From Verrucomicrobiia bacterium (GTDB taxonomy: Bacteria; Verrucomicrobiota; Verrucomicrobiia; Limisphaerales; CAIMTB01): a DNA stretch of 64,000 bases. The stretch covers positions 101,561 through 165,560 of the forward strand of contig JAHCBA010000009.1 of assembly GCA_019634625.1 (NCBI GenBank), in the 5' to 3' direction. The notes beneath the pieces are model-generated. The model had not been told where the DNA came from and did no database searches. It saw only the letters and a program-made list of their open reading frames with translations. Both the position numbers and the translations under genes were made by a program. Below are positions 3,511 to 34,284 of the stretch, one piece after another; position 1 is the first letter of the stretch; each line of letters starts with the position of its first letter.

Positions 3511-4169
3511 GGGGCAAGGGGGAGGACGGGATGGTCGCGGACCGGGGCGAACGAGCGGCGATGGATGGGGCAGGGGCCGAGACGGGCGAGGACGGCACGA
3601 TGGCGGGCGGTGGGGTAGCCTTTGTGCTCGGCGAATCCGTAGTCGGGCCAGGTTCGGTCGTAGTCGTTCATGCGTCGGTCGCGGGCCACCTTGGCAAGGA
3701 CGCTGGCGGCGGCAATAGAGGCGCTGCGCGCGTCGCCACCGACCAGGGCGGTCTGGGGAGCCGGCAGATCGGGGACGGGTAGGCCGTCCACAAGCAGGTG
3801 CTGGGGGGCGGGGGCAAGGACGGCGATGGCCCGGCGCATGGCGACCTGGGTGGCCCGCAGGATATTGAGGCGGTCGATTTCCCCGACTTCGACAAAGACG
3901 ACGGCCTGCTGGACGTGGGGGCAGGCGAGGAGGAAGGCGGCGAAGCGTTCGCGGCGGGCGGGGGCGAGGCGTTTGGAATCGGTCAGGCCATGGAGTTCGG
4001 GCGGCAGACCGGCGCGGATCCAGTCGGGGGGAAGCACGACTGCGGCCGCGGCGACCGGTCCGGCGAGGGGACCACGCCCGACTTCATCGATTCCTGCCGC
4101 GCGGGCGATGCCGCGGGACAGGAGATCCCGTTCGAAGTCGAGCAGGGACGACGGGTTGCCGTGGGCCAT
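3507..4169 (-). CDS. rnhB: Ribonuclease HII
   Basis: Cleaves the RNA strand of RNA/DNA hybrids and starts removal of single ribonucleotides from DNA. The 220 residues include the catalytic GIDEVGRGPLAGPV motif (Asp28, Glu29), a later HLLVDGLPVPD segment that supplies a third acidic residue, the KVARDRRMNDY segment with the fourth, and the family-typical YGFAEHKGYPTARH. The position between rplS and yraN is a very common bacterial arrangement. The ATG at 4169 follows the rplS stop by 91 bp; that gap holds no other obvious gene. Confidence 0.96.
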   Translation of the reverse strand: MAHGNPSSLLDFERDLLSRGIARAAGIDEVGRGPLAGPVAAAAVVLPPDWIRAGLPPELHGLTDSKRLAPARRERFAAFLLACPHVQQAVVFVEVGEIDRLNILRATQVAMRRAIAVLAPAPQHLLVDGLPVPDLPAPQTALVGGDARSASIAAASVLAKVARDRRMNDYDRTWPDYGFAEHKGYPTARHRAVLARLGPCPIHRRSFAPVRDHPVLPLAP

Positions 4170-15122: not shown

Positions 15123-15286
15123 CCGCGCATCCCGGAGTTGTGGGGAGTGGTGCGAACTCCGCCAGGCGGCGCTTCGGAGGGCCGGGTTCCACGAGGCCGC
15201 AACGGAGTGGAGCGTTGGGTTGAGGACTCGCAGAGCTCGTCCCCCCGATGCGCTGCCTCCTCCCCCGCAACGCCGGGATGCACCGG
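15123..15286 (+). repeat. 164-bp dispersed palindromic repeat, copy 1
   Basis: Core at 15175-15247 (73 bp) begins CGGAGGGCCGGG and ends CTCGTCCCCCCG, so its ends are inverted repeats. An inner pair, GTTCCACG and CGTGGAGC-like, forms a second potential stem. The outer ends GCATCC and GGATGCACCGG are also inverted. Copy 3 at 42635-42798 has exactly the same length, in the opposite orientation; partial copies are at about 39615-39983 and 52556-52628. It lies between the cold-shock gene and hemW. Confidence 0.8.
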
Positions 15287-15348
15287 CCGGAGGGCCAGAC
15301 GGAACGCGGGGCTTGGGGCGGGGTGCCGTGCGGGTTAGGGTTTTCCCG

Positions 15349-16536
15349 ATGGTTCCTGCATTTTCAGGAGGACCGGGCAGCGCGAGCGAGCCGCGGAGTG
15401 TGTACATCCATGTGCCGTTCTGCGCGCGGAAGTGCGAGTACTGTGCGTTTTACTCGACGTCGGCGGATGGAGAGTTGATCCGCCGGTATGTCGGGGCGCT
15501 GGTTCGGGAGATACGGGAGCGAAGCGGCAGTTGGGGAAGGCCGCTGGAGACAGTCTTTTTCGGGGGCGGAACCCCGTCGTTGCTGACGTTATCCCAGTGG
15601 GAGTTGCTGTTGGGGGTGTGGGAGGGTTTGGGATTGTCGGGGGTGGGGGAGTGGACGGTGGAATGCAATCCGGCGACGCTGTCGGAAGACAAGGCACGGT
15701 TGCTTCGAGCGGGCGGGGTGAACCGGATTTCGCTGGGGGTGCAATCGCTGGACGAGGGATTGCTGGACCGGCTTGGGCGGGTTCACAGCCGGGACATGGT
15801 GTTCCGGTCGTACGATGTGCTGCGGCGGGCGGGGTTCGAGAACATCAATCTGGATCTGATGTTTGCGATTCCGGGGCAGACGATGGCGTCGTGGGAGGCG
15901 ACGGTACGGGAGGCGCTGGCGATGGGGAGCGAGCATTTGTCGTGTTACGAGGTGATCTACGAGGACGACACGCCGTTGTTCGCGCAATTGCGGGCGGGGG
16001 AGTTCGAGGTGGACGAGGAACTGGCGGAGCGCATGTACGAGCGGTGGGTTGAGGCGGCGGACGGGGCGGGGTACCGGCAGTATGAGGTGGCGAATTTCGC
16101 GCGGGACGGGGCGGGGGGCGAACTTCCGGAGCGGGCGTGCCGGCACAACGTGAACTACTGGAGGGGCGGGCGGTATGCCGGGTTGGGGCCGAGCGCCTCC
16201 GGGTACGAGGGGGAGGTGCGATACCGTCAGGTTTCGAGCACGCAGGCGTACTGCCAGGCCATCGATACCGGGGCGAGCGCACGGGAATGGGTCGATGGGC
16301 TGTCGGGGTTGGCGCGGGCCGGGGAGGTGGCGGCCTTTGGATTGAGAATGAACGCCGGTTGGCCGTGGGAGGCATTCCGGCGGGCGACGGGGTACGATTT
16401 GCGGGAAGGCTGGTCGGCGGCTATGGCGACCCTGAAGGGGCGGGGCTGGGGGGTGGAGGAGGCGGATCGATTCCGGCTGACGGCGCAGGGGATGCGGTTT
16501 GCGGACGCGGCGGGGAGCGAGTTCGTGGGAGGATGA
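15349..16536 (+). CDS. hemW: HemW-like radical SAM protein
   Basis: 395 residues from the ATG at 15349. The radical-SAM cluster motif is CARKCEYC (Cys25, Cys29, Cys32) in SVYIHVPFC; the fourth Cys of true HemN is missing (CAFYS follows), so this is the HemW (haem chaperone) branch rather than an oxygen-independent coproporphyrinogen oxidase. Further blocks: ETVFFGGGTPSLL, EWTVECNPATLSEDK, NRISLGVQSLDEGLLDRLGR, and NINLDLMFAIPGQT. The C-terminus has the HemW-specific NYWRGGRYAGLGPSASGY. A haem-insertion role fits the cytochrome-rich operon that follows 237 bp downstream, but they are probably separate transcripts. Confidence 0.9.
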   Translation: MVPAFSGGPGSASEPRSVYIHVPFCARKCEYCAFYSTSADGELIRRYVGALVREIRERSGSWGRPLETVFFGGGTPSLLTLSQWELLLGVWEGLGLSGVGEWTVECNPATLSEDKARLLRAGGVNRISLGVQSLDEGLLDRLGRVHSRDMVFRSYDVLRRAGFENINLDLMFAIPGQTMASWEATVREALAMGSEHLSCYEVIYEDDTPLFAQLRAGEFEVDEELAERMYERWVEAADGAGYRQYEVANFARDGAGGELPERACRHNVNYWRGGRYAGLGPSASGYEGEVRYRQVSSTQAYCQAIDTGASAREWVDGLSGLARAGEVAAFGLRMNAGWPWEAFRRATGYDLREGWSAAMATLKGRGWGVEEADRFRLTAQGMRFADAAGSEFVGG

Positions 16537-16772: not shown

Positions 16773-17426
16773 ATGTCCGACATATTTCCCAGGTGGACCA
16801 ACCGACTGCCGCGGCTGATTGCCATTGGCGCGATCCTGACCGGAACGGCGGTCAGCGCGGCGGTCTGGTATTACTTCACGCCCAAATACACGCGGGTCGG
16901 GTACCAGCCGGTTCAGCCGGTGCCCTTCTCGCATGCCGTCCATGTGGACCAGCTCGGCATCGACTGCCGGTATTGCCACGATGGGGTGGAGAAGTCGTGG
17001 TACTCGAACGTGCCCTCGGCCTCCTCGTGCATGAACTGCCACAACGCGGTCCTGCCGGGCGATCCGAAGCTGGAACTGGTGCGGGAGAGTTACGCGACGG
17101 GGACGCCGATTCCGTGGGTGCAACTGCACAAGACGCCGGACTACGTGTACTTCAACCACGCGGTGCACGTGAACCGGGGGGTGAGCTGCGTGCATTGCCA
17201 CGGGCAGGTCAACCGGATGGAAGAGGTGTACCACGCCAAGCCGCTGAGCATGGGTTTCTGCCTCGAGTGCCATCGAAACCCGCAGGATTTCCTGCGCGAC
17301 CCGAAGCTGGTGTACGACCTCAACTGGCAGCCGGAAGATCCGGTGGCCCACCGCGACGCGATGCTCAAGGCGGTCCATGACTGGAAGATCCAGTCGTCGC
17401 AGAACTGCTCGACTTGCCACCGATGA
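16773..17426 (+). CDS. actA: Alternative complex III subunit ActA, penta-haem cytochrome c
   Basis: 217 residues. One N-terminal transmembrane helix (about residues 14-35, LIAIGAILTGTAVSAAVWYYF) anchors a periplasmic domain with exactly five CxxCH haem sites: CRYCH, CMNCH, CVHCH, CLECH and CSTCH, the last at the extreme C-terminus. This matches ActA of quinol:acceptor oxidoreductase ACIII, which carries electrons out of the complex. It opens a ten-gene run; its stop overlaps the actB start (ATGA). Confidence 0.95.
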   Translation: MSDIFPRWTNRLPRLIAIGAILTGTAVSAAVWYYFTPKYTRVGYQPVQPVPFSHAVHVDQLGIDCRYCHDGVEKSWYSNVPSASSCMNCHNAVLPGDPKLELVRESYATGTPIPWVQLHKTPDYVYFNHAVHVNRGVSCVHCHGQVNRMEEVYHAKPLSMGFCLECHRNPQDFLRDPKLVYDLNWQPEDPVAHRDAMLKAVHDWKIQSSQNCSTCHR

Positions 17427-20400
17427 AGACCATTCCGCCTCCCTGTCCCGAGCCGGAGTCCGGCGTCCGCTACTGGCGCGGGTTCGACGATCTGGAAGGG
17501 ACTCCTGAGTTTCAGGAGCAACTGGCCAGGGAGTTCCCCGCGGGTGCGAGTGAACTGACCGATCCCACCACCCGGCGGACCTTCGTGAAGCTCATGGGGG
17601 CGTCGATGGCCCTGGCCGGCCTGGGTGTCACGGGATGCCGTCGGCCTGAGGAACGCATATTTCCATTCGGCCGCCAGCCCGAGGGGTATGTCCACGGCGT
17701 GCCGCAGTACTTTGCGACGGCACTGCCGACGCGGACCGGTGCGGTGCCGCTGGTGGCCAAGCAGCACGACGGCCGTCCGGTGAAGGTCGAGGGCAACGCC
17801 CACCATCCGGATAGCAACGGCGGGACCGATGTCTTTGCGCAGGCGTCGATTCTGGACCTGTACGACCCGGACCGCAGTCGCAGGTTCCTGCGGGGCGGAG
17901 TGACGGTATCGCGCGAGGAGGCGTTGGAGTTTCTGGGCGAACTCGGGCGGGGGGCGGCGGCGAATGGCGGGAAGGGACTGGCGGTGCTCGCGGGGCGGGG
18001 AACGTCGCCCTCCCGGGCCAGGATGCGGGCGGCGCTGGCGCAGAAGTGTCCCCAGGCGCGCTGGTACACCTACGAATCGGTCGATTTCGACATTCATCGT
18101 CAGGGCGCGCAAGTGGCCACCGGACAGCCGGTGGGGCCGTATTACCGGGTGGACCAGGCGCAGGTCATCGTCTCGCTCGACTGCGATTTTCTGGGTCGCG
18201 AAGAGGAAAGCGCGCGGTACAGCCGGGGCTTTGCCCGGGGCCGCAAGGCGGAGACGGTCCACGACACGTTGAACCGGCTGTACATCGCGGAGGCGCTGAT
18301 GTCGGTGACCGGGGCGAACGCCGACCATCGGTTGCGGCTGGCGGCGGGCCAGGTGTTTCCGCTGACGGCGGCGCTGGCGGCGGCGATTCTGCCCGAGGGA
18401 CCGCTTCGGGAGGCTTGCGCGGCGGTGCCGCAGCCGGCCGGGGTGGATGCGCGTTGGATTGCGGAATGCGCCGCCGATCTGGTGGCCCATCGGGGACACG
18501 CGCTGGTTCTGCCGGGGCACAGTCAGCCCTTGGCGGTGCATGTTCTGGCGCATGCGATCAACGGGGCGCTGGGCGCGGTGGGCAGGACCGTCGAGTACCG
18601 TCCCGCCCCGGTTCCCCAGGACGGCACGCTGGCCGAACTGGCGTCCGCGCTTCAGGCGGGGCAGGTGGAGACGCTGATCGTGCTGGAGGGCAACCCGGTG
18701 TACGCGGCGCCGGCGGATCTCAATTGGGCGGAGGCCCAGCGCAAGGCGAAGACGGTGGTGCGCTTCGGATATTACGAGGACGAGACCACGGAGCGCAGCG
18801 ACTGGCATTTCCCGGCGACGCATTATCTGGAGTCGTGGGGCGATGCACGCACCAGCGATGGAACTCTCGTGGCGGTGCAGCCGCTGATTGCGCCGCTGTT
18901 CGGTGGATTGACCGACGTCGAGTTCCTGGGACGGCTGGCCGGTCAAAGTCCGGCACGCGGGTACGACATGGTCCGGGAAACCTTCTTCGAGCTGGCGGGA
19001 ACGCGGTCGGAGGAGGCCTGGGGCCGGTTCCTGCACGATGGATTCGTGAAGGACAGCGCCTCGCGTCCCCAGACGGCGACGGTGGATGCGGCGGCGGTGA
19101 CGCAGGTGGTGAGTGCGGCGGGCCGGCTGCCGGTGCCGGCGGTGGACCGGATCGAGCTGGTGTTTCATCGGGACGGCAAGATCGACGACGGCCGGTGGGC
19201 GAACAACGCCTGGCTGCAGGAGCTGCCGGACGCCATCACCAAGATCACCTGGGACAATGCGGCGTTGATCAGCCGGCGGACGGCGTCCGAGCTGGGGTTG
19301 ACCAATGGGGAGCGGGTCACGATTGAGGTGGGGGGGCGGAGCCTGTCGGCACCGATCTGGGTGATGCCGGGCATGGCGGATTTCACGGTGGCCCTGGCCC
19401 TTGGGTATGGGCGGACGCATCCGGGGCGGGTGGCGTGCTTCGAGGGGAAGCCGGTCGGATTCAACGCCGGGGTGTTGAGGACGACGGGAACGCCTTGGAT
19501 GGTGCCGGGGGCGAAGCTGACCGGAACCCGTCAGACCTTCGACTTTGCGACCACGCAGACGCACTGGGCGATGAGCGGGCGGCCGATCGTGCGCGAGGCC
19601 AACGTTGCGCAGTTCCAGAAGTTCCCGGGGTTTGCGAAGAACTTCGATCTGGAGGCGCACGCCGGGCACATCCCGGTCGGTCCGGACGGCCATCCGAAGC
19701 CCCTTTACAAGACGCCCTACGAGGAGCGGCCGGAGGAGCAGAAGAGCGATCTGCATCAGTGGGCGATGTCGATCGACTTGAGCGCCTGCACCGGATGCGG
19801 TGCCTGTGTGATCGCGTGCCAGAGCGAGAACAACATCCCGATCGTCGGCAAGGATCAGGTGATCCGGGGCCGGGAGATGCACTGGTTGCGGATCGACCGG
19901 TATTTCACGGGGTACCGCAAGGGCCAGCGCAACAAGCTGATTTCGGACGATCGACAGTGGCGGGAGGGTTGGATTGACGATCCGCAGGTGGTGACACAGC
20001 CGATGATGTGTCAGCACTGCGAGAAGGCCCCGTGCGAAAGCGTCTGCCCGGTGAACGCGACCGTTCACGACGCGGAAGGGCTCAATGTCATGGCGTACAA
20101 CCGCTGTGTCGGGACGCGGTATTGTTCGAACAACTGCGCGTGGAAGGTGCGGCGGTTCAACTATTTCGATTACAACAAGCGCCCGGGCAACTACGGCGAC
20201 ACGTCGATGGGCCAGCGCGGTTACCTGTACCGCGGTCCGCTGGCCAGGCGAAGCGCCTCGGAGCTGGAACTGATCCGGATGGCGAAGAACCCGGAGGTGT
20301 CGGTGCGGATGCGCGGGGTGATGGAGAAATGCACCTTCTGCACCCAGCGGATCGAGACGGCGAAGATTGCGCGCAAGGTGAAGGCGGGGGCCAGCGGGGA

Positions 20401-20749
20401 CGTGCAGGTGACCGACCGGGACGGCTTGAAGACGGCGTGCCAGCAGGCGTGCCCGGCGGAGGCGATCGTCTTCGGCAACCAGCTCGAAGCGGGCAGCCGG
20501 GTCAACCAGTGGAAGAAGAATCCCCGGGACTACACGGTCCTTGGCTTTCTCGACACGCGGCCGCGCCTCACCTATCTCGCGAAGCTGCGAAATCCGAATC
20601 CGCGGATGCCCGACTACCAGGAGGTGCCGATGAGCATCCGCGAGTACGAAATCATGTATCACTCGGATCCATTCACCCCGCATGGAGCGGCCCATGACGG
20701 GGCGGCCGCGGGGACGACAGGGACGGCCGGGCAGGAGGGAGGACACTGA
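17423..20749 (+). CDS. actB: Alternative complex III subunit ActB, molybdopterin-oxidoreductase-like with iron-sulfur domain
   Basis: 1108 residues starting at the ATG that overlaps the actA stop; an in-frame ATG 9 bp earlier is possible. A Tat-like signal ([20 protein letters not shown], then TGC) lies around residues 45-67. The large N-terminal part resembles molybdopterin oxidoreductases, which in ACIII carry no cofactor. The C-terminal ferredoxin part (about residues 775-1035) has four Cys groups: [35 protein letters not shown] and CTFC with CQQACP. In known ACIII this holds [4Fe-4S] and [3Fe-4S] clusters that link the quinol site to ActA/ActE haems. The actC start overlaps the stop by one base. 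Confidence 0.95.
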
Positions 20750-22185
20750 TGGCCCACGCGATCGACAAGATCCCACCGTACGTCGTCGCGCCTCCGCCGG
20801 AGCTGGAGCGCGTGCCGCTGGTGCTGAACCAGCGTCCGCATTCGTGGATTTCCGACAAGATAGCGGGCATTGCGGAAGGGAAGACGCCGACGTGGTGGTG
20901 GATCGCCCTGGCGATCAGCATGACCGGCATGCTGACGATGTTCGGCATGATCGTGTATCTCATCTCGACCGGGGTGGGCGTCTGGGGCTTGAACCAGCCG
21001 GCGGCCTGGGCGTGGGACATCACGAACTTCGTTTTCTGGATCGGCATCGGCCATGCAGGAACGCTGATTTCCGCCATTCTGTGCCTGTTGCGGCAGAGGT
21101 GGCGGACTTCGATCAACCGGGCGGCCGAGGCGATGACGCTCTTTGCGGTGGTGTGCGCCGGAATTTTCCCGGTGGTGCATACGGGTCGGATCTGGTACGC
21201 GCTGATGCCGGGGTATCTCATTCCGTTTCCCAACGCCAATGAGATCTGGCCGCAATTCCGGTCGCCGTTGCTGTGGGATGTCTTCGCGGTCTCGACCTAC
21301 GGAACGGTGTCGTTGTTGTTCTGGTACACCGGGTTGATTCCGGACCTGGCGACCATGCGGGACCGGGCGGTGTCGAAGGTGAAGAAATTCCTGTACGGGT
21401 TGTTCGCGCTGGGCTGGAACGGATCGAACCGGCACTGGTGCAACTACGAGAAGGCGTACCTGATTCTGGCCGGGTTGAGCACGCCGCTGGTGTTGTCGGT
21501 GCACTCGGTGGTGTCCTTCGACTTTGCGGTCTCGCAGGTGCCCGGATGGCACACGACGATCTTCCCGCCCTACTTCGTGGCCGGGGCGATCTTCTCAGGG
21601 TTCGGGATGGTGCTGACGCTGCTGGTGCCGTTACGGAGCATCTGCGGGTTGCAGGATGTGATCACCACGCGGCACATCGAACTGATGTGCAAGGTGATAT
21701 TAGCGACCGGTTCGATGGTCGGGTACGCGTACGCGATGGAATTCTTCATCGCGTGGTACGGGGGCAATCCGTACGAATTGTACGCCTTCCAGAACCGGGC
21801 TTTCGGACCCTACTGGTGGGCGTACTGGATCATGGTGAGCTGCAACGTGATCAGCCCGCATCTGTTCTGGTTCAAGTGGTGCCGGACGAGGATGTGGTTC
21901 GTGTTTGCGGTTTCGATCGTGGTGAACATCGGGATGTGGTTCGAACGGTTTGTCATCATCGTGACCTCGCTGCACCGCGACTATCTCCCCTCGAGCTGGG
22001 GATATTTCAGCCCGACCTACGTGGATGTGCTGACCTTCGTGGGCAGCTTCGGGCTGTTCTGCACACTCTTCCTGTTGTTCATGCGGTTCCTGCCGATGAT
22101 CGCCATTGCGGAGGTGAAGGCGGTCACACCGCAGGCTGACCCGCATCATCCGCTGGGCGGCGCCCGGTTGGGAGGGACACACTGA
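20749..22185 (+). CDS. actC: Alternative complex III subunit ActC, NrfD/PsrC-like membrane protein
   Basis: 478-residue polytopic membrane subunit with around ten hydrophobic segments (for example [20 protein letters not shown] and [20 protein letters not shown]). It belongs to the NrfD/PolSR-C family and forms a quinol-binding membrane arm of ACIII. Conserved stretches include [40 protein letters not shown] and [20 protein letters not shown], including His residues typical for this subunit. Start and stop overlap neighbours by one base, indicating tight coupling. Confidence 0.95.
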
Positions 22186-22724
22186 TGAGCACCGACGCAC
22201 GACCCTATGCGCTGATGGCCGAGGTGGAATCGCCGTCGGCGGCGTTGAGAGCGGCCGAGGCGATCCGGGAAGCCGGCTACAAGCGGTGGGATGTTCACAC
22301 GCCGTATCCGATCCACGGGCTCGACGGGGCCATGGGCCTGCGCAACTCGCGGGTGGGATGGTTCACCTTCGTCGGGGGCACCACCGGGTTCACGCTGGGC
22401 ATGCTGATGATCTGGTGGATGGGGAAGATCGATTACGCGATCCCCGTGGGCGGCAAGCCGCTGTTCAGCCCGATCTTCTCGTTTCCGGTGGCGTACGAGC
22501 TGACCATTCTCCTGGGGGCGTTCGGGACGCTGTTCGGAATGGCCCTGCTGAACCGGCTGCCGCGCCACTATCATCCGCTGTTGAAGCATCCCCGGTTCCG
22601 GCAGGTCACCCATGACAAGATCTTCGTGGTGATTGAATGCGCGGATCCCAAGTTCTCCGAGACCGAGACCCGGCAACTGCTGGAACGGGTCGGGGGGCGC
22701 AATGTGGAGACGGTGGAGGACTGA
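22185..22724 (+). CDS. actD: Alternative complex III subunit ActD (DUF3341)
   Basis: 179 residues. The soluble N-terminus (YALMAEVESPSAALRAAEAI, then GYKRWDVHTPYPIHGLD) is the DUF3341 signature, followed by two transmembrane helices (GWFTFVGGTTGFTLGMLMIW and ELTILLGAFGTLFGMALLN). A C-terminal cytoplasmic segment has HDKIFVVIE. It is a structural ACIII subunit without cofactors. Confidence 0.93.
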   Translation: MSTDARPYALMAEVESPSAALRAAEAIREAGYKRWDVHTPYPIHGLDGAMGLRNSRVGWFTFVGGTTGFTLGMLMIWWMGKIDYAIPVGGKPLFSPIFSFPVAYELTILLGAFGTLFGMALLNRLPRHYHPLLKHPRFRQVTHDKIFVVIECADPKFSETETRQLLERVGGRNVETVED

Positions 22725-22726
22725 CC

Positions 22727-23380
22727 ATGCGTTATTTCCTCGCCCTATTCGCCCTGACGTGCGTGCTGGTGGTGGTGGTTGCCGGGCCGCGCGGCTCGAC
22801 CTCGCGGCGTCCGCCCATTGAGATCTGGGATGACATGGACCGGCAGTTGAAGCTGCGACCGCAGGCGGTCGCCGGATTTGAAGGATGGCAGGATGCCCGG
22901 ACCTCGCGACCCTGGGTGGCGGGCACGGTGCCCCGGTTGGAGCCTGTGCGGGTGGGTGGCAACCTGGTGCATCGCTTCGAGGATCACCCGGTGATCACGG
23001 GCCGTGAGGCGGTTCAGACCAACCATGTGGAATCAATTCCGCTTCCGGTCACGGAGCGCCTGCTGGCGCGGGGACGGGAGCGTTATGGGATCCACTGCAC
23101 GCCGTGCCATGGTGCGACCGGGGACGGCAACGGGATCGTCAAGCGGTTCGGCCATGCGGCGATTCCGGCGTTGACCGATGAGGCCCGGGTGCGTTTGCCG
23201 GACGGCTACCTGTACCAGGTGATCCAGATGGGGAGTCCGAGCGGCCTGATGGGGCCCTATGGAGCCCAGATCGAGATTGAAGATCGCTGGGCGATCGTGG
23301 CCTACATGCGAGCGCTGCAATTGTCGCGCCTTGGCCAGCCCGAGGACTTACCCGAAACCGTCCGAGTGACGCTCAAATAG
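22727..23380 (+). CDS. actE: Alternative complex III subunit ActE, mono-haem cytochrome c
   Basis: 217 residues from the ATG at 22727, two bases after actD. A single N-terminal hydrophobic segment (YFLALFALTCVLVVVVAG) anchors or exports the protein. One haem site, CTPCH, sits in ERYGIHCTPCHGATGDGNGI, and GLMGPYG is a candidate distal-Met region. WAIVAYMRALQLSR is the usual C-terminal helix. It is an electron carrier of ACIII. Confidence 0.93.
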   Translation: MRYFLALFALTCVLVVVVAGPRGSTSRRPPIEIWDDMDRQLKLRPQAVAGFEGWQDARTSRPWVAGTVPRLEPVRVGGNLVHRFEDHPVITGREAVQTNHVESIPLPVTERLLARGRERYGIHCTPCHGATGDGNGIVKRFGHAAIPALTDEARVRLPDGYLYQVIQMGSPSGLMGPYGAQIEIEDRWAIVAYMRALQLSRLGQPEDLPETVRVTLK

Positions 23381-23386
23381 TCTGCC

Positions 23387-24634
23387 ATGGCCTCCACCGC
23401 CGCCGTTTCACCCTCTGTTCCGGTCTCCGCCGAGGCTCCGCCCTGGCTGACGCGCCTGCCCTTCCTGCTCACCGTGGTGGGCGGGTTTGGCGTGCTGCTG
23501 GGGATTGTGGTTCCCTCGCTGCAGAAGCAGTTCGCCTTTTCCTGGCTGCTGGCGTTCATGTTTTATCTCAGCCTGATGTTGGGCGGGCTGTTTCTGGTGA
23601 TCCTGCATCACCTGTTCGATGCCCAATGGTCGGTGCCGATCCGCCGGGTGACCGAGCATCTGGCCTGTCTGGCGCCGCTGATGGCGGTGTTTTTCGTGCC
23701 GATCGCCTTCAACGCGCTGTTTGCGGGGCCGGAGAAGGCGCTGTTTGCCTGGATGCACTCCGATGCGGCGACCGACCATGCGCTGTACGCGAAGAAGCAG
23801 TTGTTCAACCGCCCTGCCTGGCTGGTGGTGTCACTGGGCCTCTTATGGACCTGGCACTGGCTCACCCGGGAATTGCGCAAGGCATCGGTCGAGCAGGATC
23901 GGACCGGGGCGGCCTCCTGCACCCGGCGGATGCGGTTCCTGTCGGCGATGGGAATTTTCGTGTTTGCGCTGACGCTGACGTTCGGGGCGATTTTGTGGAT
24001 GAAGTCACTGCAGTGGCAGTGGTTCTCGACGATGTACGGGGTGTATTACTTTGCGGCGAGCGTCTGGCTGACGGTGGCGACGGTGTATGTGATCGTGCTG
24101 CATCTTCAGCGGACCGGCCCGTTGTCGGCGGTGGTGCAGCCGGTGACCTACCATGATCTCGGGAAACTGTTCTTCGCCTTCACGGTGTTCTACGCGTACA
24201 TCGCCTTTTCGCAGTACTTCCTGATCTGGAACGCGAACATTCCGGAGGAGACCTTCTGGTACGTGGCACGCGAGCAGGGGTCGTGGTGGAGCGTGGGGCT
24301 GCTGATGGTGTTCGGTCATTTCTTCGTTCCCTTTCTGATCCTGCTGCGCATCGACACCAAGATGTCCTACACGGTGATGATCCCGATGGCGGTATGGGCG
24401 TGGCTGATGCATTTCTGCGACCTGTCGTTCAACATCATGCCGGTGCTGCATCCGGAGGGATTTGTGGTGCACTGGCTGGATCTGAGCTGTCTGGCGTTGA
24501 TGGGGGGCGTGCTGGCGACGTACTTCATCCGTGATTTCAGGGGGCACGCGCCGTTTCCGCAGAAGGATCCCCGGATGGCGGAGTGTCTTGGAATCCACCT
24601 GAGTGCGGGTGGGAAAGAGGGAGGTGCGCATTGA
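23387..24634 (+). CDS. actF: Alternative complex III subunit ActF, membrane quinol-binding subunit
   Basis: 415-residue paralogue of ActC with about ten membrane helices (for example LLAFMFYLSLMLGGLFLVIL and FAFTVFYAYIAFSQYFLIWN). Family landmarks are FLLTVVGGFGVLLGI, HHLFDAQWSVPIRRVTEHLA, and KKQLFNRPAWLV. No haem motif is present. It is the second membrane arm of ACIII. Its stop overlaps the start of the next small gene (TTGA). Confidence 0.93.
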   Translation: MASTAAVSPSVPVSAEAPPWLTRLPFLLTVVGGFGVLLGIVVPSLQKQFAFSWLLAFMFYLSLMLGGLFLVILHHLFDAQWSVPIRRVTEHLACLAPLMAVFFVPIAFNALFAGPEKALFAWMHSDAATDHALYAKKQLFNRPAWLVVSLGLLWTWHWLTRELRKASVEQDRTGAASCTRRMRFLSAMGIFVFALTLTFGAILWMKSLQWQWFSTMYGVYYFAASVWLTVATVYVIVLHLQRTGPLSAVVQPVTYHDLGKLFFAFTVFYAYIAFSQYFLIWNANIPEETFWYVAREQGSWWSVGLLMVFGHFFVPFLILLRIDTKMSYTVMIPMAVWAWLMHFCDLSFNIMPVLHPEGFVVHWLDLSCLALMGGVLATYFIRDFRGHAPFPQKDPRMAECLGIHLSAGGKEGGAH

Positions 24635-25005
24635 GCCCGGATAACGGTTGCTGTTCGCGGGCCACCCTGAACTGGGTGGGGGTGATCGGAGCGTTTTTCA
24701 CGATGCTGGTGCTGGTGCTGGCGCTGAGGCATTACACGTCGGTGCCGGACGTGAACCAGGCGCGCGCCTCGGAGCGGGCGAAGGTTCTGGCGGAGACGAG
24801 GCAGAAGGAGGCCCTGGAGTTGTCCACCGCCGCATGGATCGATCAGGAGAAGAACCTGGTCCGGCTGCCGAATGACATCGCGATGGCGATGACGGTGGAG
24901 ATGTGGCGGGATCCGGCCCAGGCGCGTGCCGCGCTGCTGGAACGTGCCGGGAAGGCCTTCTTCGTTCCGCCCCCGCCCCCGGAGGCTCCGAGCGAGTGGG
25001 AATGA
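24631..25005 (+). CDS. Small single-helix protein of the ACIII operon
   Basis: 124 residues if started at the TTG at 24631. This start is favoured because it overlaps the actF stop (TTGA) and has GGAGGTG seven bases upstream. It has one transmembrane helix (LNWVGVIGAFFTMLVLVLAL) and a soluble part with a charged helix (ARASERAKVLAETRQKEALE) ending in a Pro-rich tail (VPPPPPEAPSEWE). No cofactor motif is visible. It may be a small accessory subunit comparable in position to ActG, but I do not recognise the family. Confidence 0.7.
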   Translation: MSPDNGCCSRATLNWVGVIGAFFTMLVLVLALRHYTSVPDVNQARASERAKVLAETRQKEALELSTAAWIDQEKNLVRLPNDIAMAMTVEMWRDPAQARAALLERAGKAFFVPPPPPEAPSEWE

Positions 25006-25053: not shown

Positions 25054-26511
25054 ATGAGTCCGTCAACGTATTCGCCTACAGGGCGCGAGGGGGTCCCCAC
25101 ATTGGCCGAGGTGGATGCGTCGTGCCGGTGGCTGGCCTGCCTGCTGGTTCCCAAGGCGGCGGCCTGGGGCGTCATCGGGACCCTTTTGTTGCTCGTCGCC
25201 TCCATCAAGCTGCATGCGCCCGGGTTGGGAGCGGACCATGCGTGGCTTGGGTACGGGAGGCTGGCGCCGGCGGGTTGGAGTGCGCTGGTCTATGGCTTTG
25301 TTGGGCAGGCGGCGATGGCGGTGGGCTTGTGGGTGGTGGCCCGGGCGTCGCGTCAGCGGTTGCAGGCGCCATTCCTGATCGGGTTGGGGGGGGCCTGTTG
25401 GAACCTGGGAATCCTGGGAGGCGTCGTCGGCGTCCTGGCGGGTTACTCGACGGGCCGGGAGTGGTTGGAGATGCCGGTTTGGGCGATGACCTTCGCCGTG
25501 ATCGGGGCCGCGTTCGTCGGGGTGGCCGGATGGATGACCTTCGCGACCCGGACCGAGGAGCAGACCTATCCCTCCGCGTGGTTCGTGTTGCTGGGGTTGC
25601 TGGCCTTCGTGTGGGTGGGGACGGTGGCGTTGCTGATGTTGGGCGGGGAAGGGGTTCGCGGGGTGACGCAGGTGCTGGTGCAGCGCTGGTTTGCGGGCGG
25701 GGTGAGCAAGCTCTGGCTGGGCGGCATCGCGGCGGGGATCGTCTTTCATTTCCTGCCGTTGCTGGCGAACCGGCCGTTGGCGAGCCGGCCGTTGGCGCTG
25801 ATCGGATTCTGGAGCCTGGCGGTGTTCACGCCTTGGGCGATCACGATGCACGGGGATCCGTTTCCCCGTTGGGTGGTGAGCCTGGGGATGGCGGGTCAGG
25901 CGTTGGGCATGATCGGGCTGGTGTCGATTGCGCTGAACTGGTGGAAGACCGCCGAGGGGGCGCTGGGCGCGGTATTCTCGGGTGGACCGGGCCGCCTGCT
26001 GGGCGCGGCGGCGATGGCCTACGTGGCGGGCTGGGGCATTCAGTATCTGGCCGGGCTGCCGCAGGCGGCGGCGGTGTTGCGGTTGACATGGATTCACCAG
26101 GGGCAGGACTGGCTCTGGGTGGGCGGCGCGGTCGGGCTGGCGGTCATGGCGGTGGTGCCGGAGATGGTCGAGCGGGCGACCGGGCGGCCCTTGAACTCCG
26201 GCCTCATGAACTGGAACGGGCGGCTGATGCTGATCGGGGTGGGGTTGATCGCCATTCCGCTGCTGCTGGCGGGTGTGGTGCAGGGGCTTGGATTGAATTC
26301 GGGCACCCGGCCGTTTCTGGAGGTGCTTCGTGGAAGCATGCACTGGGTTCGATTGAGCACGCTGGGGTACATGGTCCTTCTGGCAGGGCAACTGGTCTTC
26401 CTGCTGGCCGTGATGGGCTGGTGGCGCACGGCGGTGAGGGAATGGATGGCCGGGGTGGTGGCGTACTGGTCTGCGCCGGTATCGGATGACCGGATGGAGG
26501 TGCGTTCATGA
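25054..26511 (+). CDS. CcoN-like (cbb3 oxidase subunit I) protein lacking most metal ligands
   Basis: 485 residues from the ATG at 25054 (a GTG at 25018 is an alternative). About twelve hydrophobic segments follow the CcoN pattern: WLGYGRLAPAGWSALVYGF corresponds to the helix II region, VFHFLPLLANRP to the helix after the CuB helix, FPRWVVSLGM to the segment after the His-His pair, and RPLNSGLMNWNGRLMLIG to the last core helices. But the residues that bind haem and copper in CcoN are mostly gone: the helix II His position is Gly/Trp, HN of the CuB helix is replaced, the His-His pair reads Ile-Thr, and the crosslinking Tyr is Phe. Only six His remain (54, 62, 232, 266, 348, 430). It is probably not an active oxidase. 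The stop overlaps the next gene (ATGA). Confidence 0.75.
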   Translation: MSPSTYSPTGREGVPTLAEVDASCRWLACLLVPKAAAWGVIGTLLLLVASIKLHAPGLGADHAWLGYGRLAPAGWSALVYGFVGQAAMAVGLWVVARASRQRLQAPFLIGLGGACWNLGILGGVVGVLAGYSTGREWLEMPVWAMTFAVIGAAFVGVAGWMTFATRTEEQTYPSAWFVLLGLLAFVWVGTVALLMLGGEGVRGVTQVLVQRWFAGGVSKLWLGGIAAGIVFHFLPLLANRPLASRPLALIGFWSLAVFTPWAITMHGDPFPRWVVSLGMAGQALGMIGLVSIALNWWKTAEGALGAVFSGGPGRLLGAAAMAYVAGWGIQYLAGLPQAAAVLRLTWIHQGQDWLWVGGAVGLAVMAVVPEMVERATGRPLNSGLMNWNGRLMLIGVGLIAIPLLLAGVVQGLGLNSGTRPFLEVLRGSMHWVRLSTLGYMVLLAGQLVFLLAVMGWWRTAVREWMAGVVAYWSAPVSDDRMEVRS

Positions 26512-27230
26512 AGTCGGCACCGTTGATCTTTCTGGGGATTCTGCTGGGTCTGGCGGGGTCGTGGTGGGGGATGGTGGTGGGCCCGAAGCTGCAGTTGGGG
26601 AGCGCCTCCGCGGTTGAGGTGAAGGGTTCGAGTGTGCATTACCCGCCGGTGCGGCCTGGTTTGGCGAAGCAGGGAGCCGAGATCTATCGGCGCGAGGGAT
26701 GCAATGCCTGCCACAGCCAGCTGGTCCGGCCTGCGGGGTTTGGGTTCGATCTGGGGCTGGGCTGGGGTCCGCGCCGCACGGTGGGGCAGGACTATCTGCG
26801 CGATGACCCGGTGATGCTGGGGCATGTCCGGGTGGGACCGGATCTGGCGAACATCGGATTGCGATTGGGGGCTGGCGACACCAATGCGCAGCCGACGATG
26901 GTGGCGTATCAGTTGCGGCACTTGTACGACCCGCGCGGTGCGATGCCGGGATCGATCATGCCGGCGTACCGGCACCTTTTCCGGCTGCAACCGATCGAGG
27001 GCCAACGGTCGCCCGATGCCCTCAATTTGAACGGCCCGGCGGCACCGCCGGAAGGATTCCAAGTGGTTCCCACGGACGAGGCGAAAGCGCTGATGGCCTA
27101 TCTCTTGAGCCTGCAATCGCCGGTCTCCCTGAAGGAGGCGCCGATCCTCAGCCGCCCGGGCGAGGAATCGGAAGAGGAGGAGGAAGAGGCGACCAACGAT
27201 GTGGCCGAGGTGGCGATACTGACCCGATGA
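26508..27230 (+). CDS. CcoO-like mono-haem cytochrome c
   Basis: 240 residues. An N-terminal membrane helix (LIFLGILLGLAGSWWGMVV) is followed by the CcoO-type haem region EIYRREGCNACHSQLVRP, WGPRRTVGQDYLRDDPVMLG, RVGPDLANIG, HLYDPR and SIMPAY, where the Met is the likely distal ligand. In cbb3 oxidases this subunit feeds electrons into CcoN. The C-terminus ends in an acidic run (EESEEEEEEATND), unusual for the family. Both ends overlap neighbours by 4 bp. Confidence 0.88.
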   Translation: MKSAPLIFLGILLGLAGSWWGMVVGPKLQLGSASAVEVKGSSVHYPPVRPGLAKQGAEIYRREGCNACHSQLVRPAGFGFDLGLGWGPRRTVGQDYLRDDPVMLGHVRVGPDLANIGLRLGAGDTNAQPTMVAYQLRHLYDPRGAMPGSIMPAYRHLFRLQPIEGQRSPDALNLNGPAAPPEGFQVVPTDEAKALMAYLLSLQSPVSLKEAPILSRPGEESEEEEEEATNDVAEVAILTR

Positions 27231-27853
27231 AGAAGGCGCAGTCTTCCAGTTCCATTCCGTCCGTGTTGTCGTCGGAGGCGAGTCCGAAGACGGGCAGTTA
27301 TTCGCTGCCGGCGGGCTTTTTCCTGGCGATCTCGGCGCTGCTCTATCTGGGCAACGCGGAGGGGTGCTACCATCACGGGCACTTTTCGGCGTCGGTGTAC
27401 GAGCCGTATGCGGATCTGCGGAGCATTCCCAGCGCCGATGGCGAGGTGGACCGGGTGAACGTGGGGCGCCAGCTCTACTCCCTGCGTGGGTGCGTGGCCT
27501 GCCACCAGCCGAACGGCATGGGCAATCCGGCCAACCAATGTCCTCCCGTGGCGGGTTCGGACTGGGTGTTGACCGAGGGGGCCGGGCGGCTGATCCGGAT
27601 CATCCTGCACGGGGCGGCCGGGCCGATGGTGGTGAACGGGCAGACCTGGAATGGGAACATGACGCCATTCGGCCCGGTGCTGGACGACGAGGAGATTGCC
27701 AACATCCTGACCTACATCCGCCAGGCTCCCGAGTGGGGCAACAATGCGGGCGAAGTGACACCGGAGATGGTGCGTGCGGTGCGGGACGCGACGGCGGATC
27801 GGACCGCGCAGTGGTCGGCGGCCGAACTGCTCAGGATTCCGGAGACGGAGTAG
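27227..27853 (+). CDS. Membrane-anchored mono-haem cytochrome c
   Basis: 208 residues, last gene of the ACIII operon. A short Ser-rich start leads to a hydrophobic anchor (LPAGFFLAISALLYLGNA). One haem site, CVACH, is in GRQLYSLRGCVACHQPNGMG; WNGNMTPFGPVLDDEEIANI supplies a likely axial Met and the typical class-I C-terminal helix. It occupies the place of CcoP but has one haem, not two. Its last 23 bp overlap the convergent DUF2784 gene. Confidence 0.88.
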   Translation: MKKAQSSSSIPSVLSSEASPKTGSYSLPAGFFLAISALLYLGNAEGCYHHGHFSASVYEPYADLRSIPSADGEVDRVNVGRQLYSLRGCVACHQPNGMGNPANQCPPVAGSDWVLTEGAGRLIRIILHGAAGPMVVNGQTWNGNMTPFGPVLDDEEIANILTYIRQAPEWGNNAGEVTPEMVRAVRDATADRTAQWSAAELLRIPETE

Positions 27854-31497: not shown

Positions 31498-31899
31498 ATG
31501 AAGGATGAAGGCAGGCGGGCGCCGATCGAACTCACGGAGGCGGAGTGGAGCGTCATCAAGGCGGTGTGGGAGCGGGAGCCGTGCACCGCGCCGGAGGTGC
31601 AGGAGCGGTTGCGGGCGGCGACGGGATGGACGTACAGCACGGTGCGGACGTTGATGGACCGGATGGTGGGGAAGGGGTTGTTGACGGCGCGGAAGGACGG
31701 GAAGGTGACCCATTTCCGGTCGGTGGCGACGCGGGAGCAGGCGCGTCGCGGGGAGGTGTTGTATGCGCTGGAGCACGCCTTCGACGGGGCGTTGACGCCG
31801 ATGGTGGAGTGCCTGCTGGACACGCGGGGCCTGTCGGAACGGGAGCTGGACGAGCTGGACGCGCTGATCCGGTCGCATCGGCGGCGCAGCCGGAAGTGA
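31498..31899 (+). CDS. BlaI/MecI-family transcriptional repressor
   Basis: 133 residues. The winged-helix N-terminal half (LTEAEWSVIKAVWEREPCTA, EVQERLRAATGWTYSTVRT and LMDRMVGKGLLTARKDGK) is typical of BlaI/MecI; the C-terminal half (ALEHAFDGALTPMVECLLDT) is the dimerisation part. In the paradigm, the repressor is inactivated after a BlaR1/MecR1-type membrane protease senses a signal. The partner M56 gene starts 19 bp downstream, and two operators lie just upstream. No beta-lactamase gene is nearby, so the regulon is unknown. Confidence 0.92.
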   Translation: MKDEGRRAPIELTEAEWSVIKAVWEREPCTAPEVQERLRAATGWTYSTVRTLMDRMVGKGLLTARKDGKVTHFRSVATREQARRGEVLYALEHAFDGALTPMVECLLDTRGLSERELDELDALIRSHRRRSRK

Positions 31900-31917
31900 C
31901 GGAGACCCCGAACCGCA

Positions 31918-34284
31918 ATGGGATTCGCGATGAAGACCTGGATCGAGTTCCTGAACCGGGCTGGCGAGACGGCGATGCCGGTCGCGCTGGCGGCCTTCGT
32001 GCAGGTGAGCGGGGTGGTGCTGGTTCTTCTGGTGTTGGATCGGTTGCTGGCAAGGCGGGTGCGCGCCGTGTTCCGGCATGCGCTCTGGCTGCTGGTGCCG
32101 TTGAAGCTGCTGTTGCCGCCGGGAGTGGCCCTGCCGACCTCGGCGGCCTACTGGCTGCGGATGGAGGCCCCGGTGGCGGAACAGATGCGAGGGGAAGTCT
32201 TCAACGGCGACGTTCGTGTCGGGTACGCCGACGGGATCGCGGGAATCCATGACGCGGCGGATCGCGCGCCGGGCGAAGGACAGGACACGGTGGGCCAGCC
32301 GGGCCTGACCTTACGGGGGGGTGGCGTGCTGGGGTGGTTCGTGGGCTTCGCCGGCTTGGCGGGCTGGATGGCATGGGGTGCGGTCCGGGTGCGGCGGACG
32401 GTGCGGGAAGGCCGGCGGGGAACGGCGACCCTCGAGGCCATGGCAGTCGGGGCGGCGGCGGAGTTGGGTCTGGGGCGGACGCCCCGGGTGGTGGTCTGTG
32501 AACGGGCGGGCACACCTGCGGTGTGCGGTCTGTGGCGGCCGGTGGTGGTGATGCCGCCATCGTTGGTGGACGGGCTGGATGCGGAGCCCATGCGAGCGGT
32601 GCTGTTGCACGAGATGGCCCATGTGAAGCGGGGCGACCTGGGGTGGAACCTGCTGCAGTCGGCCTTGCTGGCGGTGTATTGGTGGCATCCGCTGGTGTGG
32701 GTGGCGCAGGCGCGGATGCGGCGGGTGCGGGAGGAGGCGGTGGACGAGACGGTCGCCGTGGTCTTGCGTGGGGAGACGGAGGGGTACGCGCGGGCGCTGG
32801 TACGGGTGGCCCGTCACGCGGTCCGGCGGCGGGCGCCAGGTCTGGGGTGGGTGGGGATTCTGGAGTCGCGCAGTGCGTTGCACGAGCGGGTGCGGCGGCT
32901 GATCTCGCTGCCCACGCCCGGAAGCGCGCGCTTGGGGATGGTCCAGCGGTTGAGCGTGGGATTGCTGGCGGTGGGACTGTTGCCCATGGCGCCGCGGTCC
33001 AGTGATCAGGAGGCGGCGACGGGGGCGGTGGGAGCCTCAGTGCCGCGCGAGGTTGCGGCGGCAACGGAACGAGGCGGGACGACGGTCGTGGCGGGTGGGG
33101 ACGCTTTGCCCGAGGACAGCGAATCCATCGCGGCGCTGGTCCAGGCGATCAAGGAGGGCAATGAGGAATTGGCGGCGATGCTGCTGCGGTACCGCAGTGG
33201 ATGGCCGCCTGTCATCCAGCAACGCATGAGGATCGCGGAGCTGGAAGCCCGATTGGCCGAACGCCGCCTGCGGGATGGTGGGCGCTCGTCTTTGGAACCG
33301 CTGTGGACGGACCAGGGGGCGAGTGCGGGCGAAGCACTGACCGGCCCGGCAATTACTGGGGCGTCGATGAAACTGCTGACCGTATTGGTGGCGGACGCCT
33401 CGCCGCCCTACTACGTGGGCGGCGACCTGCCGACCATGCTGTCGGAACTGGCACCTCGACTGCGGGCGTTGGGAACCGACCCCGAGACCGTCCTGATGGT
33501 GCGGGCCGAGCAGCGGGCTTCCTGGGATTCGGTCGCCGCACTGATCGAGGCCGCCCGTGCGTCGGGGATCCGTCGGGTGAGCCTGTCGCGGGCGGAGGGG
33601 GCCGGACCCGTCGGGATCCCGGCCGGGACATCGCCGGTTCTCCGGGCGTCGCCTGCGCGAATGATTCAGCTCGAAGCTGTCGTGTACCAATGGAGCGCGG
33701 CGACCCGGCAGGCCGTGGGACTCGGAGGGGATGCTGAAGGGTCGATGGTGCCCATGACACGGGCCCGGATGCAGGGCGTGAGGCGCACCGCGGAGGCGTC
33801 GGAGGATGCTGTCATCATGAACCTTCACCGAGTGACAACCCTCGAGGGACGGGCCGCAACGTTTGAGGTGGAGGAACCCGCGGCGTCGTTGCGTCGGTTG
33901 GGATTGAGCCGGCTGCGGATGGAGGTGCTGCCCCGGCCGTCCGGCGACGGGTACACGTTCGAACTCGAGTTAGGGACGCAGTGGACGGATGTGATTCCGG
34001 TGGTGAAGGACGGCACGGCGGCGGCGGATGCCCGAGTGGAGCCCCGTCAGGAAGGAGGCGTGTATTCGGTGAACGCGGTGGGGTACATCAACAGCCGGAG
34101 AAACGGCCGGGTGCGCCTGTACGATGGCCAGTCGGTCTGGATTCCGCTTCCCCGGAGTTCCGTGTTTCCGGCGGAGGATGCCTCGACGCGGGACCGATGG
34201 TTGCAGGTAACCGCCCAGACGATCGATCCCGCCGGCAACCCGATCCACACCCGCGAGGCGGAGACGGTGCCGACGCAGGAGTAG
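31918..34284 (+). CDS. M56 (BlaR1-like) sensor peptidase with ExbD-like domain
   Basis: 788 residues (an ATG four codons in is an alternative start). N-terminal membrane helices (AAFVQVSGVVLVLLVLDRLL, and around 140) frame a zinc-metallopeptidase loop with HEMAH (His231, Glu232, His235) in VLLHEMAHVKRGD and downstream EEAVDETVAVV, the M56 signature. After a further membrane helix near 345 (VGLLAVGLLPMA) the typical penicillin-sensor domain is absent. Instead there is a charged helix, an ExbD/TolR-like periplasmic segment (about 484-557, PETVLMVRAEQRASWDSV and ARASGIRRVSL) and a beta-rich C-terminus (TTLEGRAATFEVEEP). The signal sensed is unknown. Confidence 0.85.
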   Translation: MGFAMKTWIEFLNRAGETAMPVALAAFVQVSGVVLVLLVLDRLLARRVRAVFRHALWLLVPLKLLLPPGVALPTSAAYWLRMEAPVAEQMRGEVFNGDVRVGYADGIAGIHDAADRAPGEGQDTVGQPGLTLRGGGVLGWFVGFAGLAGWMAWGAVRVRRTVREGRRGTATLEAMAVGAAAELGLGRTPRVVVCERAGTPAVCGLWRPVVVMPPSLVDGLDAEPMRAVLLHEMAHVKRGDLGWNLLQSALLAVYWWHPLVWVAQARMRRVREEAVDETVAVVLRGETEGYARALVRVARHAVRRRAPGLGWVGILESRSALHERVRRLISLPTPGSARLGMVQRLSVGLLAVGLLPMAPRSSDQEAATGAVGASVPREVAAATERGGTTVVAGGDALPEDSESIAALVQAIKEGNEELAAMLLRYRSGWPPVIQQRMRIAELEARLAERRLRDGGRSSLEPLWTDQGASAGEALTGPAITGASMKLLTVLVADASPPYYVGGDLPTMLSELAPRLRALGTDPETVLMVRAEQRASWDSVAALIEAARASGIRRVSLSRAEGAGPVGIPAGTSPVLRASPARMIQLEAVVYQWSAATRQAVGLGGDAEGSMVPMTRARMQGVRRTAEASEDAVIMNLHRVTTLEGRAATFEVEEPAASLRRLGLSRLRMEVLPRPSGDGYTFELELGTQWTDVIPVVKDGTAAADARVEPRQEGGVYSVNAVGYINSRRNGRVRLYDGQSVWIPLPRSSVFPAEDASTRDRWLQVTAQTIDPAGNPIHTREAETVPTQE

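Follow-up and report, generated by a model that had tools for sequence, protein, structure and literature searches.

The window, the whole stretch of 64,000 nucleotides analysed here, contains an operon of ten genes, linked to alternative complex III (ACIII), in the order ActABCDEF-small-N-O-P, in which N is the eighth (Table 1). ActF has no Pfam match, and the small membrane protein encoded before N has no family match among the Pfam and TIGRFAM-type models. Relatives of this small protein have a W-[IV]-D ... IP[IN]..AM motif in common. In one family (f64), an extra cytochrome c with one CXXCH replaces the small gene between ActF and N (8279-9217 in L174, and the equivalent in L176). As judged by eye from the translations, window 15220-16536, immediately before ActA, encodes a HemW/HemN-like radical SAM protein, and a BlaI-like repressor ORF adjoins a BlaR1/M56-like ORF at window 31498-34284.

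Table 1 The ten genes of the ACIII operon in the window
Product	Position	Strand	Basis of assignment
ActA, pentahaem cytochrome c of ACIII	16773..17426	+	Cytochrome_C7 1.5e-15
ActB, molybdopterin-type and FeS subunit	17414..20749	+	QrcB/QrcC-like, TAT-variant MoCo matches, operon position; start codon uncertain
ActC, NrfD-like membrane subunit	20749..22185	+	PF03916 2e-19
ActD	22185..22724	+	PF11821 ActD 4.6e-63
ActE, monohaem cytochrome c	22727..23380	+	Cytochrome_CBB3 6.6e-11; start set at MRYF as in homologues
ActF, membrane subunit	23387..24634	+	Position; homologues likewise placed in nearly all loci
Small membrane protein between ActF and N	24583..25005	+	In most operons; start uncertain
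N, ligandless CcoN homologue	25054..26511	+	Pfam, TIGR00780 and 3mk7_A matches, ligand alignment
O, CcoO/FixO-like monohaem cytochrome c	26508..27230	+	PF02433 1.2e-18; CNACH and Met151
P, monohaem cytochrome c	27227..27853	+	PF00034 4.6e-12; one CXXCH (CVACH) and Met145

The N open reading frame begins with the ATG at 25054, its stop ends at 26511, and the product (P0001) has 485 residues. P0001 matches Pfam COX1 (5e-24) and P. stutzeri CcoN (PDB 3mk7_A, 4.5e-18), and it matches TIGR00780 ccoN at 1.9e-19, with only 69.9 bits against a cut-off of 583. A profile built from 16 N homologues that have likewise lost their metal ligands (the ligandless profile) matches 3mk7_A at 6e-54 and true CcoNO along the core (hhalign probability 99.9%, E 2.8e-36). 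By these matches P0001 is a full-length homologue of CcoN, subunit I of the C-type haem-copper oxidases, and they bear out the original prediction that the two align end to end. A twelve-helix fold is implied by the homology; the AlphaFold model computed from a two-row alignment (P0001 and L032) has a pLDDT of 38. Nitric oxide reductase was considered as an identity and rejected, as the intact relatives retain the active-site Tyr and have ccoN as their best match. As in the cbb3 oxidase of P. stutzeri, a gene for a monohaem CcoO-like partner adjoins N, whereas the dihaem CcoP partner is absent and P carries a single CXXCH.

Subunit I of a haem-copper oxidase is defined by its metal ligands. 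In P. stutzeri CcoN, H60 and H347 are the haem b ligands, H345 the proximal ligand of haem b3, H207, H257, and H258 the CuB ligands, and Y251 the cross-linked active-site Tyr. The alignment (P. stutzeri numbering) places G74 and W353 of P0001 at H60 and H347, so that the low-spin haem b pair is absent, and Q351 at the position of the haem b3 proximal H345. At the CuB site, H207 is replaced by G215 and H257 by M265, while H258 falls on a gap or on H266; this alignment is ambiguous because of a two-residue deletion there, and H266 may be aligned with one CuB His. The cross-linked Tyr is replaced by T259. Among the putative K-channel-like residues, which we take to be Y223, S240, and Y317, two of the three are lost (F, A, and Y in P0001). 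Compared with P. stutzeri CcoN, N lacks every haem and CuB ligand and the active-site Tyr, and several of the residues of the haem propionates and the putative K-channel are also missing.

The original prediction spoke of the loss of most haem and copper ligands. The loss is real, but the wording was too weak, since six of the six ligands are gone, with H266 the ambiguous one. P0001 contains six His in all (54, 62, 232, 266, 348, and 430), of which H266 and H348 had been placed near ligand positions. This may hold for H266 with respect to one CuB His, but H348 does not occupy a ligand position. The reading of the His-His pair as Ile-Thr and of the Tyr as Phe was right about the replacement but a few residues off (M265 and gap or H266, and T259). 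Judged by its sequence, N has almost certainly lost catalysis; the non-catalytic nature suggested for it is strongly supported.

A single-protein query of genome contigs found one relative only. A match was found in 100 of the 116 related genomes searched, nearly all from the order of the window. Two kinds of protein occur among the related genomes, the ACIII-linked form of ~490 residues and CcoNO fusions of ~750 residues with every ligand. A phylum-wide search, which used an alignment as the query, located the ACIII-linked form across the class. From a sample with many draft assemblies and non-independent genomes, we extracted 131 N loci, of which 31 have all seven active-site residues (the six ligands and the Tyr), 100 have none to three, and none has four to six. 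Three intact copies (L073, L083, and L086) come from the window's own order. The ten-gene order, sought in other Verrucomicrobiota, is common to intact and ligandless loci and was found across the class. Extra ActD and 'P' profile matches in the locus scan were mostly overlapping or spurious ORFs and were left out.

The intact ACIII-linked C-type oxidase (for example in L083, L086, L187, and L191) shares with ligandless N both the operon and the N family, with the ligandless profile matching intact members at hhalign E 2e-127; the two differ in that the intact form has all seven active-site residues. The expected conservation of the His losses across homologues is seen in the 100 ligandless genes among the 131. 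Intact homologues had been named as a sign that this copy is an artefact. This objection applies in half: such homologues do exist, in 31 loci, but 100 genes have the loss in common, and purifying selection acts on the ones tested. In other classes of the phylum (L183, L184, and L205), a separate C-type-like oxidase of ~460 residues has all ligands and lies away from the ACIII genes. The plasmid matches are other C-type oxidases.

A tree of ActC, ActF, and O from 69 loci, computed with a mixture model, requires at least 11 changes between the intact and ligandless states, and branches with strong support force 8 of these. For an earlier tree, which had 99 loci but fewer intact rows, the corresponding figures were 7 and 5. 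When loss is assumed to be irreversible, the best tree has 12 losses. Within one family the ligandless L166 groups with the intact L151 and L191, and within another the ligandless L167 groups with the intact L187. We read the changes as losses because the regain of seven residues together is implausible, and ligand loss would then have been repeated many times independently.

Loss did not proceed to the same point in all lineages. N of G128 and G282 retains H60, H347, R57, W203, and R437, but its binuclear positions are occupied by N, S, Q, R, and Y; by sequence it would be a haem b protein that lacks an active site. In families f64 and f69, H60 is still present and H347 has been lost. Structural-looking positions retained in the ligandless set are W38, P56, G68, R69, G81, W93, R97, W116, N117, G130, E139, P141, W176, W187, W212, P235, P269, P271, W273, N295, G395, and G407 (P0001 numbering), and the W, G, P, and R scaffold positions are in common with P. 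stutzeri CcoN. Residues that presumably serve the haem propionates and the K-channel in CcoN are often replaced in ligandless N, in which the scaffold residues are kept. In the ligandless set S240 is replaced by A in 77%, Y223 by F in 52%, Y317 by F in 40%, and H337 by Q in 37%.

Ligandless N is under purifying selection in the lineages tested, with dN/dS between 0.025 and 0.40 in nine pairs. The cytochromes encoded around it keep their haem c motifs. In ligandless operons, ActA has five CXXCH in 78 of 79 cases and ActE one in 96 of 96; O and P retain their single CXXCH in 95 of 97 and 93 of 94, and the distal Met in 85 of 97 and 92 of 94, respectively. Over all the operons counted, the five motifs of ActA are present in 86 of 87 and the one of ActE in 105 of 105. 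This is in line with the original prediction that the partner cytochromes retain their haem sites, and in the window both O and P have a CXXCH and a distal Met.

A true oxidase was expected elsewhere in the genome. Besides N, PF00115 matches are located on contigs C15 (aa3) and C62 (a CcoNO fusion), and cytochrome bd is also encoded. A further PF00115 match, partial in some cases, is present in 97 of the 99 ligandless genomes, and the other two (G018 and G043) both encode a full-length cytochrome bd. N is the sole PF00115 match in G038, G109, G116, and G261, all of them with intact N. Cytochrome bd is also absent from G116 and G261, where intact N is the only terminal oxidase found among PF00115 and cytochrome bd. 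Genomes with a single PF00115 match thus make up 4 of 31 in the intact and 2 of 99 in the ligandless set (Fisher p 0.03), a modest excess among genomes that are not independent; the median number of PF00115 matches is equal in the two.

Genes for an aa3 oxidase come directly after N-O-P in eight ligandless loci, beginning 1.4 to 2.3 kb beyond N. Only where the two sets of genes are neighbours do they suggest direct coupling to aa3; in the genome of the window aa3 sits on a contig other than that of the N operon, and this suggestion does not extend to it. An ACIII-aa3 supercomplex is described for Flavobacterium johnsoniae in the passage of PMC8361435 that cites Sun et al. 2018. The arrangement in that passage is alike in that ACIII is tied directly to a terminal oxidase, and in several lineages here the operon is followed by ordinary aa3 genes. 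It differs in that here a ligandless CcoN and two monohaem cytochromes are encoded between the ACIII and the aa3 genes.

The explanation that we favour as a whole, and consider likely, is that N serves as a metal-free scaffold by which cytochrome relays are held on ACIII. N would once have been the catalytic subunit of a C-type (cbb3-like) oxidase whose genes share an operon with those of ACIII. Most of the lineages sampled in the class have an N that has lost all ligands of haem b, haem b3, and CuB, and oxygen reduction would be gone. The protein would have been kept as a metal-free membrane scaffold, anchoring the monohaem cytochromes O and P beside ACIII. Quinol electrons would leave via ACIII, first through FeS and next through the haems c in ActA and ActE, and would go on to O and P; these may pass them to a soluble cytochrome c or to an aa3 oxidase, the genes of which in some cases lie immediately downstream. 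Since N and its partner cytochromes are still maintained together by selection, a role as scaffold is probable, and we give it good but not overwhelming credence. From the sequences we infer that N folds free of haem and copper, associates with ACIII, and acts as this scaffold, and that electrons flow in the direction described.

In the original prediction, the idea of a membrane adaptor between ACIII and cytochromes agrees best with the conserved operon, the retained haem c sites, the purifying selection, and the aa3 genes directly downstream in several lineages, although the tie itself is something that we infer. The other suggestion in it, a new electron-transfer module, needs correcting; the 31 intact loci point to an ACIII-linked C-type oxidase that was repeatedly stripped of its ligands. 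In a wider proposal, a terminal oxidase core would have been turned many times, in parallel, into the metal-free structural hub of an ACIII-cytochrome-aa3 supercomplex in which electrons are relayed with no mobile cytochrome c. The proteins annotated as 'cbb3 oxidases' in verrucomicrobial methanotrophs and in several Opitutaceae would then not reduce oxygen. We regard the chances for and against this proposal as evenly balanced.

It is extremely improbable that N is a pseudogene in neutral decay or a sequencing artefact. In every lost pair compared, conservation of N is below that of ActC, and in most it is also below that of ActF, as decay would have it, but stop-free open frames are found in nearly all loci, the dN/dS range given above points the other way, and the W, P, G, R, and N positions are 80-100% conserved over 100 divergent sequences. 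Chance or artefact does not account for the ligand loss, which is seen in 100 loci, nearly all of them with an open frame, and the dN/dS values of the tested pairs lie well under 1. Ligandless N might also have arisen once or a few times, with intact copies regained through horizontal transfer of N only, and parsimony counts do not distinguish such gains from losses. This would need many precise gene swaps within the operon, however, and the tree was built from the operon neighbours, which already covers transfer of whole operons; we consider it very unlikely.

Binding of haem or metal via different residues, leaving N redox-active but altered, would agree with the G128/G282 family, in which the low-spin haem b site is complete and the binuclear site lost, and with f64 and f69, which retain H60 only. 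The ligandless set, however, has no new conserved His. Its best His columns (P. stutzeri 40 and 384) reach 72%, are non-ligand positions, and are His in intact forms as well, and P0001 has Asn at column 384, which makes this reading improbable. N may instead act in the assembly, stability, or regulation of ACIII, or be a further membrane subunit that handles quinone or protons, comparable to the cofactor-free NrfD-type ActC and ActF, with cytochrome positioning not its main role. Cofactor-free membrane subunits are normal in ACIII according to a passage on the NrfD family (PMC8076601), and N is kept in almost all operons, with purifying selection acting on it. Against this stand O and P, which accompany N almost always and with intact haem motifs, and the replacement of the putative proton-channel residues S240, Y223, and Y317 in the proportions given above argues against proton transfer through the old channel. 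A main role as such a subunit is unlikely in our view, and the metal-free scaffold is the reading that we retain.

An ACIII cluster with an adjacent C-type oxidase was already known in verrucomicrobial methanotrophs and Opitutaceae, as stated in a passage of PMC8498564 citing Refojo et al. 2010. G267 probably corresponds to Methylacidiphilum kamchatkense Kam1 (PMC6688271) and G214 to Opitutus terrae PB90-1 (PMC3048395). Both have the published gene neighbourhood and are ligandless members of the family. G267 has pmoA-family genes, and its N (L195) carries S, E, S, S, H, F, and V at the seven positions; the phylum search (E 1e-30) found no second C-type protein in this genome. N of G214 (L179) is likewise ligandless. 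In a passage of the Kam1 genome paper (PMC6688271), high affinity for oxygen is linked to the cbb3 oxidase encoded next to ACIII. In the passages concerned (PMC8498564 and PMC6688271), the oxidase of the cluster is treated as a working cbb3 and ligand loss is unmentioned, and the open-access text searched held no report of ligand loss in the N family.

These results correct the view of Kam1 physiology, in that the protein tied to oxygen affinity is without the haem and copper ligand set, and published 'oxidases' of the ACIII-linked ligandless kind may not be oxidases. Annotation at the family level would miss the ligand loss because Pfam COX1 matches ligandless N above its cut-off. With forms that are intact, half-stripped down to the haem b site, or wholly stripped, all in the same operon, the N family provides a natural separation of scaffold from catalysis, and it lets one ask directly what keeps ACIII attached to its oxidase. 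In Verruconatronum AB-alg1, the genes 003969-003971 directly after ActABCDEF are annotated as a caa3 oxidase (PMC13274419). As far as this annotation tells, their position would fit N-O-P.
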